From an uncultured Pseudodesulfovibrio sp. (GTDB lineage Bacteria; Desulfobacterota; Desulfovibrionia; Desulfovibrionales; Desulfovibrionaceae), in assembly GCF_963675635.1 (NCBI RefSeq), contig NZ_OY776488.1:1401501-1465500 (forward strand): a stretch of 64,000 nt of DNA. Direction: 5' to 3'. The position numbers and the translations under genes are program-made. This document shows, in pieces, positions 2,263 to 3,888 of the stretch (the first letter of the stretch is position 1; each line of letters starts with the position of its first letter). The notes beneath the pieces are model-generated. The model saw only the letters and a program-made list of their open reading frames with translations, was not told the origin of the DNA and searched no databases.

Positions 2263-3069
2263 ATGAGCGAGAAGAATCATGAAGCCTCGGCACAGGCCAT
2301 GAAAGAATTGCTTGGTGTCATTGATGCCCTGATCGCCCCTGACGGCTGTCCATGGGATCAGGAGCAGACCCCCCATTCCATGTGTGACTATCTGGCAGAA
2401 GAAGCGTTTGAACTCATCGAAGGTATTAGAAACAAGGACAGGGCCGAAGCCATGGAAGAACTTGGCGATGTCATGTTCATCCTCCTGTTCATAGCCACAC
2501 TCTACGAGAAGGAAGACGCGCACACCCTGGCAGACTCAATCAACTACAGTGCTGCAAAAATGATACGCCGTCACCCACACGTCTTCGGTGACAAAAATTT
2601 CAAAGATCTCAACGAACTGTGGGACAACTGGGAAAGTACCAAGCGGGAGGAAAACAAAAAAACAGGCAGAAATCGAGTCTTTGACTCCCTGCCCAAAGGG
2701 CTCCCTCCCCTGCTCAAGGCCTACCGCATAAATTCCAAGGCCGCCCGCAACAAGTTTACCTGGAACTCAGACGAGGCCGTGGAAACTCAGCTCAAGGAAG
2801 AATGGCAGGAATGGCAGGAAGCTCTGGCTGATAAAGATCAGAGCGCGTCGGAACAGGAATTCGGCGACTACCTTTTCACATTGGTGGAATTGGGAAGACG
2901 CAAAGGAATCAAAGCCAACAGCGCACTGGACTTCGCCAATCAGAAATTTCTCGACCGTTTCGGCAAGATGGAAGAACTGGCCGAAATGCGCAACATGGTC
3001 CTTTCAGAATTGAATCTGGACGAAATGAACGCCCTGTGGGACGAAGTAAAGGACTGGGAAGGGAAATAG
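2263..3069 (+). CDS. mazG: Nucleoside triphosphate pyrophosphohydrolase MazG
   Basis: Hydrolyses (d)NTPs to monophosphates and pyrophosphate, a house-cleaning enzyme. The 268-residue product has the two-domain MazG layout. The first domain holds CPWDQEQTPHS (about 29-39) and the metal-binding pattern EEAFELIE followed by EELGDVMF (about 46-75). The linker has HPHVFGD, and the second domain has KEEWQEWQEAL and EFGDYLFTLVELGR. AAGGAG lies 8 nt before the ATG. It converges with the small membrane-protein genes that follow. Confidence 0.93.
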   Translation: MSEKNHEASAQAMKELLGVIDALIAPDGCPWDQEQTPHSMCDYLAEEAFELIEGIRNKDRAEAMEELGDVMFILLFIATLYEKEDAHTLADSINYSAAKMIRRHPHVFGDKNFKDLNELWDNWESTKREENKKTGRNRVFDSLPKGLPPLLKAYRINSKAARNKFTWNSDEAVETQLKEEWQEWQEALADKDQSASEQEFGDYLFTLVELGRRKGIKANSALDFANQKFLDRFGKMEELAEMRNMVLSELNLDEMNALWDEVKDWEGK

Positions 3070-3082
3070 ACGCTGGCTAGAC

Positions 3083-3247
3083 CTAGTTAATGAGATACTT
3101 CAAGGCATAAAATACGGCGACACCTGCGCCGATAGCTGCATAGGTAAGCAGTCACGGAAGACAGTTCTTCTTGAATTTCCAGACAAGAAGACTCCCAACT
3201 CCGACGGCCGCTGCCAAGGCAATAGTGATCCTAACGGTTTCATTCAT
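3083..3247 (-). CDS. Candidate CxxU membrane selenoprotein, 54 residues, in-frame TGA
   Basis: The frame from ATG 3247 runs 31 codons, meets TGA at 3154-3152, then continues for 22 more sensible codons to TAG at 3085-3083. Read through, it is a two-helix membrane hairpin: helix about residues 5-23, a short basic turn with KKNCLP-U (C29 and position 32 form C-x-x-U), and helix about 33-53. Both helices are fully hydrophobic and the second half has no other stop, so it does not look like decayed DNA. A SECIS-like hairpin lies 26 nt after the TGA (separate entry). GGAGG precedes the start by about 10 nt. The alternative is a nonsense mutation, for example from CGA (Arg). No family assigned. Confidence 0.55.
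3113..3134 (-). promoter_or_regulatory. Candidate bacterial SECIS hairpin
   Basis: On the minus strand, downstream of the in-frame TGA (3154-3152), CGGCG at 3131-3127 pairs with CGCCG at 3119-3115 around the loop CAGGUGU (3126-3120). Below the stem a U (3132) bulges and UA pairs with UA. Known bacterial SECIS elements, such as that of E. coli fdhF, also have a bulged U and a GGU-containing apical loop, and sit about 16-37 nt after the UGA; here the loop begins 26 nt after it. Identification is by eye, without folding software. Confidence 0.5.
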
Positions 3248-3268
3248 GAATTCATGTTCCTCCGCGGC

Positions 3269-3457
3269 TCAAGGCCACCCGGTTCTTCCACTCCCGAACA
3301 CCACGTTCAGGATATAATACACTGCAAAGAACATCCCTACAGCGGCCATTACAAGATAGGGCTTCGACAGTCTGGGTCGTTGCCAGCGATAGAGTATGAA
3401 GCCGATACATACCGTGATCACGGCGGCAAGAACAAGCCATCCGATTGCAATCTGCAT
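3269..3457 (-). CDS. Small two-helix membrane protein
   Basis: A 62-residue product with two hydrophobic helices, about residues 4-24 and 34-53, joined by a basic turn (RWQRPRLSK). The C-terminus is short and ends TGWP before a TGA stop. GGAGG lies 4 nt upstream of the ATG, so translation is well supported. It has the same hairpin layout as the gene just downstream (21 nt between them, same frame), and the two may be paralogues or partner subunits. I do not recognise the family, and no catalytic motif is visible. Confidence 0.6.
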   Translation of the reverse strand: MQIAIGWLVLAAVITVCIGFILYRWQRPRLSKPYLVMAAVGMFFAVYYILNVVFGSGRTGWP

Positions 3458-3523
3458 AGTTCCTCCACATACTGACTATACCTCGACGCTCTTTCCAAGG
3501 GCAACTTTTTTTATTGAGCCCCC

Positions 3524-3550
3524 TAAAGACATGAAGCTACCTGTCGATAC
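3524..3550 (+). promoter_or_regulatory. Sigma-28 (FliA) promoter
   Basis: TAAAGACA at 3524-3531, an 11-nt spacer, then GTCGATAC at 3543-3550. This fits the flagellar sigma-28 consensus TAAAGTTT-N11-GCCGATAA at the core positions of both boxes. The transcript would start near 3557, about 40 nt before the ATG at 3598. Confidence 0.7.
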
Positions 3551-3597
3551 AACGGATAGGCGTTATTTCCAACCTAACGACTATGGAGGGTACGCTT

Positions 3598-3888
3598 ATG
3601 ACCATGGCAATCGGCGGTCTTGGAGGCTCTTCGCCTTTTGATCAGCAGACATTCGGCGCAGCCGTGGTTTCCGAGACCCTGGACTACATGAACAATACCG
3701 GCAGCGGCTCAAGCTTCGCTCCAGTGGACAAAGTGTCCGCCGAGGCGTCGCTTGTTTCCAAAACCCTGGACTACATGAATCCCGGATCCTCGTCGGCAGA
3801 CAAAACCGGCATGGCACAAAGTTACGACTTCCAAACCAGCGTCCTTAGTGCACACGCCAAGGGCGTGGTCATCGACGCCATTATCTGA
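3598..3888 (+). CDS. Small sigma-28-controlled protein with a repeated VS-TLDYMN motif
   Basis: A 96-residue soluble protein with no signal peptide. Two copies of a repeat, AAVVSETLDYMNN and ASLVSKTLDYMNP, are separated by about 30 residues and linked by Ser/Gly-rich segments. The C-terminus QTSVLSAHAKGVVIDAII resembles a third, diverged copy. I chose ATG 3598 because GGAGGG lies 7 nt upstream; the frame opens five codons earlier without a ribosome site. The sigma-28 promoter suggests a motility-linked role, perhaps like the short putative motility proteins of the YjfB type, but that is inference. A strong terminator follows. Confidence 0.7.
   Translation: MTMAIGGLGGSSPFDQQTFGAAVVSETLDYMNNTGSGSSFAPVDKVSAEASLVSKTLDYMNPGSSSADKTGMAQSYDFQTSVLSAHAKGVVIDAII

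Follow-up and report, generated by a model that had tools for sequence, protein, structure and literature searches.

A putative two-helix membrane selenoprotein with a Cys-x-Pro-Sec motif, widespread in sulfate-reducing bacteria

Closest described systems and the locus

A cysteine and a selenocysteine (Sec) set three residues apart are a classic redox centre. MerT-like mercuric transport proteins are membrane proteins, and the SECIS element of E. coli fdhF displays an AGGU loop. Known selenoproteins with a CxxU motif, among them GrdA and the SelW-like and AhpD-like proteins, combine that motif and an in-frame UGA codon with a downstream SECIS element and the Sec machinery (PMC13188914, Table 1). 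According to the same inventory, which dates from 2026, most characterised selenoproteins have a thioredoxin-like fold, and a Sec-containing MerT-like protein (PF02411) carries a C/SxxU motif. Its model of the bacterial SECIS element puts the apical loop at a distance of 16-37 nt from the UGA and calls for a G within the first two loop positions (PMC13188914).

The gene described here appears to share all of these features with the known CxxU selenoproteins, but whereas those mostly adopt a thioredoxin-like fold, its predicted product is a 54-residue hairpin of two transmembrane (TM) helices without a known domain. The Cys/Ser-x-x-Sec motif is also common to the Sec-containing MerT-like protein, from which the present family differs in having no PF02411 match and a signature of its own, namely CxPU followed by Tyr(+4) and Gly-x-Gly. 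We consider it very probable, from comparative sequence analysis, that this is a genuine selenoprotein gene of a large undescribed family of two-helix membrane proteins of about 54 residues with a redox role, a degree of confidence that applies mainly to the family itself.

The gene lies in a 64-kb stretch of DNA, the whole of which was analysed and is called the window here, in a host genome assembled as one contig of 3.52 Mb. It occupies 3083..3247 on the minus strand (54 codons and a TAG), an assignment based on the frame, its relatives, hydropathy, structure prediction and codon substitutions, and its ATG is preceded by a GGAGG Shine-Dalgarno sequence read at 3259..3263 on the same strand. 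The translation is MNETVRITIALAAAVGVGSLLVWKFKKNCLPULLTYAAIGAGVAVFYALKYLIN. Its sole interruption is the TGA of codon 32 (3152..3154, minus strand), presumably read as selenocysteine as judged by the TGA in family rows, in the setting C29-L-P-U32; the codon of Cys29, the partner of Sec32 in CxPU, is at 3161..3163 on the minus strand. Averaged over 19 residues, hydropathy comes to 1.94 and 1.77 in two segments, and AlphaFold2, run on the window protein as a single sequence, predicts helices at residues 3-25 and 30-53 (pLDDT 75.7), with Cys-x-Pro-Sec at the start of helix 2 in a two-helix membrane hairpin. Translation, hydropathy and structure prediction thus bear out the starting observation of an earlier note on this DNA, a 54-codon two-helix frame broken only by Cys-x-x-TGA. 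Among the 161 short TGA-interrupted frames of the window, CxxU occurs in seven and two hydrophobic segments in three; only the selenoprotein frame has both. The conservation seen across the family exceeds by far what this chance count conveys.

Relatives and their TGA codon

The window gene belongs to a large family in sulfate-reducing bacteria that seems to have been overlooked. Relatives were sought with stop codons of every kind read through. Starting from a single sequence, the search of the host's family (199 genomes) matched 27 genomes, with one in-frame TGA in 27/27 rows, and the pattern C-x-[PLV]-U-xxx-Y-xxx-[GA]-x-[GT] fits all 27 members. Extending to the 348 genomes of the host's order, a profile search returned 74 rows from 69 genomes, 72 of them with TGA. 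A family HMM supports 70 of these 72 rows, spread over 66 genomes and six taxonomic families; the 27 members from the single-sequence search served to build it, and its support for those members is therefore circular. The two TGA rows without HMM support (G093 and G106) were dropped. Neither of the two rows without a stop is a Cys form: one (G337) is the neighbouring paralogue and the other (G065) part of a longer membrane protein that lacks the motif. Within the genus of the window, the profile search found a member in 32 of 36 genomes.

A search across the phylum (395 genomes) gave 16 rows with E <= 5.4e-9, each with TGA, and eight weak rows (E 0.002-0.0098) without it. In a second order, that of genome G690, 213 of 257 genomes match (136/148 among good-quality genomes), and one TGA is found in every row among the matches listed. 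This order is apparently Desulfobulbales, going by the organism names met in a DNA-pattern scan of named genomes. That scan, which requires TGA, gave at least 117 stretches, of which 101 were examined and 97 are members (96 by HMM and L163 by eye), including Desulforhopalus, Desulfopila, Desulfofustis, Desulfogranum, Desulfurivibrio, Desulfocapsa and Desulfonatronum; the other four (L203, L206, L250 and L258) were judged chance matches. Plasmids yielded no match to the family. Homologues with Arg or Trp at position 32, or with a frame truncated there, which the earlier note had named as evidence against a selenoprotein, were not found in the read-through searches, where relatives carry TGA.

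Some copies are unusual. In one member (L101, genome G330) a further TGA interrupts the frame within helix 1, for which decay of this copy or an error in sequencing may account. At locus L088, which holds a good member, a second and weaker CPPU-like frame (ILWSIKNECPPUAFFFGS, 18.5 bits) lies at about 3220-3290. Finally, a MAG labelled Clostridiales contains a 38-residue single-helix CPPU form (L172, 5769-5882) with a register-B hairpin, and its genome has selB. No other member was confirmed in the 218 genomes of its order, and this one may reflect transfer or a binning error; the search of these genomes also gave seven weak rows without TGA, one of them with TAG (E 0.0004-0.009).

Neighbouring genes and possible roles

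Neighbourhoods were compared at 79 loci, among which one place is counted twice. Directly upstream of the window gene (3269..3457, minus strand) is a gene for a 62-aa two-TM protein ending in GRTGWP, whose cluster (C5) is found at 15 of the 79 loci. It aligns with the family profile (pairwise hhalign E 1.1e-5, probability 82%), scores 11.5 bits with the HMM in the window copy and 20.3 bits in the best copy, and has a relative in genome G337 that matches the family profile at E 1.9e-5; both Cys and Sec are missing at the motif. We therefore regard it as probably a Cys/Sec-less paralogue and operon partner of the selenoprotein, an assignment made by profile comparison. No match to the neighbour protein was found in viral contigs. 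The convergent neighbour mazG (2263..3069, plus strand; cluster C0, 27/79 loci) is mentioned for context only. Divergent from the operon, at 3583-3888 on the plus strand, a 101-aa protein without a Pfam or NCBIfam match is conserved in 26/79 loci. At another locus, L083, a 291-aa gene that by eye looks like a metal ABC-transporter substrate-binding protein follows 22 nt downstream on the same strand.

In one genus (g29), a rubredoxin motif lies directly upstream in 6/6 members (L013, L014, L018, L019, L023 and L027); the gene was called in four of these loci, with a gap of 1-14 nt, and one copy was checked in Pfam. In the second order, a loose motif of a TypA end lies just upstream in 62/180 rows, with one cluster representative confirmed as TypA, and der and mtnA are neighbours elsewhere. 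Over the 79 loci the neighbours vary between lineages, and the neighbourhood offers only hints because no partner is universal.

The distribution of charge bears on how the motif is placed. In 83 distinct profile-derived members, the interhelix loop has a net charge of +2.45, against -0.39 for the N-tail and +0.78 for the C-tail. Under the positive-inside rule, positively charged loops face the cytoplasm, and CxPU, where helix 2 begins, would therefore lie on that side, with Cys29-x-Pro-Sec32 at the cytoplasmic mouth of that helix. This placement, together with the Cys-Sec pair, leads us to favour a thiol/selenol oxidoreductase anchored in the membrane and working through a selenenylsulfide; it is the motif that points to this biochemical role, and we would give it about an even chance. 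Cys and Sec could form a reversible selenenylsulfide, by which the protein might shuttle electrons between a donor in the cytoplasm and an acceptor that resides in the membrane or is soluble in it, for instance a peroxide, polysulfide or a further membrane protein. A candidate partner is rubredoxin, whose gene immediately precedes that of the selenoprotein in one genus. Helix 2 also has a Gly-x-Gly face, probably for packing onto a neighbouring helix, which could belong to a second copy or, in Pseudodesulfovibrio, to the paralogue encoded just upstream.

Small accessory subunits are typically of a size that matches these roughly 54 residues. Alternatively, the same selenoprotein could serve a larger membrane complex as one of its small subunits, regulatory or structural, with Sec as a redox sensor and not a catalytic centre. 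The Gly-x-Gly helix face and the non-redox paralogue that adjoins the gene in 15/79 loci would suit such a role as well as the size does, but the gene partner is not constant across lineages, and we regard a subunit as possible, though doubtful. Another function for the same selenoprotein would be to bind or move a soft metal or metalloid (Hg, Cu, Ag, As or Se) through CxPU, as the small Mer transporters do. The tiny two-TM form with a Cys/Sec pair at a helix mouth is in keeping with this, as are the Sec-containing MerT-like protein (PF02411) of the 2026 inventory (PMC13188914) and the putative metal ABC-transporter binding-protein gene downstream of L083, seen by eye at a single locus. Against it, 49 members gave no match to PF02411 (E <= 0.01) or to an NCBIfam metal-transport model, and near-universal presence in one order (136/148 good genomes) looks like core physiology, not resistance. 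Transport or binding of metals is thus unlikely, and a membrane oxidoreductase remains the role that we favour.

Decoding of the UGA codon and cysteine counterparts

Conservation beyond the UGA was counted in the 83 profile-derived members, all of which had been retained for having TGA; rows derived from the DNA pattern were excluded because the pattern itself fixes these residues. Cys(-3) is present in 81, Pro(-1) in 77, Tyr(+4) in 79, Gly(+8) in 76 and Gly(+10) in 82. The two members without Cys(-3), L104 and L105, come from one genome (G241) and are paralogues that read NMSU and DISU and keep the TGA and the hairpin; their lack of the Cys weakens the case for a strict Cys-Sec pair. A larger count of 180 rows, with TGA in all and Cys, Pro, Tyr and Gly in nearly all, agrees with this picture but is partly circular, because 96 rows are pattern-derived, all are TGA-selected and some contigs are present twice. 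When 27 pairs without overlap were compared, the first, second and third codon positions showed 150/127/276 substitutions in 648 codons upstream of the TGA and 101/50/190 in 513 codons downstream. The pattern after the TGA therefore indicates that the downstream frame is a protein under selection.

These observations bear on the simplest alternative, in which the UGA is a true stop that ends a 31-residue single-helix peptide and the similarity downstream is incidental. UGA does end translation in most bacteria, and 13 of the 27 members from the single-sequence search use TGA as their own final stop. Nonetheless, purifying selection by codon position and the nearly invariant Tyr(+4) and Gly(+10) lie downstream of the codon, TAA or TAG never replaces TGA in family rows of the 199-, 348- and 395-genome searches, and a hairpin with compensatory changes follows the UGA. 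A true stop is in our view highly improbable.

The hairpin of the window gene (3115..3131, minus strand), CGGCG-C-AGGU-G-U-CGCCG, is called register A here. It is present as the earlier note had claimed, with a bulged U and an AGGU loop 26 nt past the UGA, and it has this loop in common with fdhF of E. coli. Compared with the bacterial SECIS model, the family differs in using at least three registers (loops at 20, 20 or 26 nt); the third, with a GGG loop at 20 nt, is found in other Desulfovibrionales and in L172, and 50/180 sequences have no uninterrupted 5-bp stem in any of the three. Against synonymous codon shuffles, 48/69 members satisfy the published model together with a stability of -7.5 kcal/mol, where 21.6 are expected (simple stem model), and 58/69 hairpin z-scores are negative.

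In a search that assumed no structure, over 78 clusters at 80% identity, the top helix (z 9.7) joins positions 15-22 to 27-34, counted from the UGA, and encloses a four-base loop 20 nt past the UGA; the z scale is uncalibrated, because several unrelated helices reach 7.7-7.9. Among 43 cluster representatives, drawn from loci L121 and above, pairing in this helix stands at 85.8%, compared with 76.8% in shuffled and at most 55.5% in slid sequences, and the same helix has 39 cells of double changes where shuffles give 13.3, the register having been taken from the 78-cluster search, which contained those sequences. Additionally, the Ile before the loop Gly is encoded by ATA in 13/15 cases at loci L121 and above, as against 17% in the pool, a codon choice that makes the AGGU loop; other lineages, with another register, show no such preference (0/7).

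In the window's own genus the signal is mixed. Each of the five outer pairs of register A forms in 93-96% of 28 sequences, against 61-96% in synonymous shuffles, and in an unguided helix search other helices rank first (best z 7.8, pairing 9-15 with 26-32), with register A absent from the top 12. The window's hairpin is no more stable than shuffles in three tests (z +1.43, +0.59 and -0.31), and at -5.6 kcal/mol in the simple stem model it falls short of the published -7.5. As fold stability is insensitive for this register, we relied on tests at family level. The folding check proposed for this candidate SECIS element thus gave a divided answer: the hairpin is there and is conserved at family level, and the stability of the window copy is unexceptional. 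Rfam gave no match at 2900-3600. The lack of a conserved hairpin, which the earlier note would have counted against a selenoprotein, is not what the family presents, and at family level a SECIS hairpin is supported by the sequence comparisons.

Sec machinery was found in the host as well, with scores over cut-off for selA (609 bits), selB (383) and tRNA-Sec (82), where absence of selB or selC had been named as an argument to the contrary. In the order, selB is found in 284/348 genomes. It is present in 60 of the 66 genomes with a member, the remaining six being draft assemblies, four of them with tRNA-Sec above cut-off; this co-occurrence is consistent but weak evidence, because about 224 of the 282 genomes without a member have selB too. 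SelB and tRNA-Sec would then decode the UGA of codon 32 as selenocysteine, directed by a hairpin within the coding sequence whose start lies 12-20 nt past the UGA. A UGA read as Trp, Cys or Arg through a changed code or a suppressor would equally lead one to expect conserved coding downstream, but with TGA as the normal final stop in 13/27 members, no sense codon at the position in confirmed rows of the 199-, 348- and 395-genome searches, and SelB, tRNA-Sec and the SECIS hairpin all present, it can practically be dismissed. Taken together, the TGA kept by read-through relatives, the hairpin conserved at family level and the Sec machinery argue for the CxxU membrane selenoprotein that the earlier note had suggested.

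That note knew of no described family with such a layout, and the sources consulted agree. When 49 members were compared with all of NCBIfam and Pfam (E <= 0.01), no fitting model and no selenoprotein model was found; one member each weakly matches Loki-CTERM, DUF3918 and DUF4126. Table 1 of the 2026 inventory, with 119 selenoprotein families, has none of such description (PMC13188914), the open-access literature searched, to which most subscription journals do not belong, contained no description of the family, and no solved structure was relevant. The selenoprotein family is widespread and apparently new, and the comparative evidence for it is strong. That it was missed could be due to the way in which candidates are selected: as the deep-Sep method is presented (PMC12013277), Cys homologues exist for all known selenoproteins, and candidates without them may be dropped. 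Salidesulfovibrio onnuriiensis, a test genome reported there with 0 new selenoproteins, apparently contains a member (L084).

A search for homologues with Cys or U at the TGA position had been proposed, and only the second were found. No Cys form was confirmed in the 199- and 348-genome searches or among the matches listed for the 257 genomes of the second order. A scan of genome contigs with the window protein carrying C for U found no relative either, which counts only against a close Cys form, because the motif patterns of that scan spell Cys. Selenoproteins without Cys homologues were mentioned as something to seek as early as 2005 (PMC1242214). This may be the only known selenoprotein family without a Cys counterpart, an obligate-Sec two-helix membrane redox protein with a reaction in which sulfur cannot replace selenium; we hold that proposition to be evenly balanced.

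The family may be one of the commonest selenoproteins in two orders of sulfate reducers, and it is missing from Pfam, NCBIfam and Table 1 of the inventory. It would also illustrate what pipelines that depend on Cys homologues, as deep-Sep is described, may discard. Finally, an apparently obligate-Sec protein of 54 residues would make the question of why proteins require selenium at all testable in a small system.
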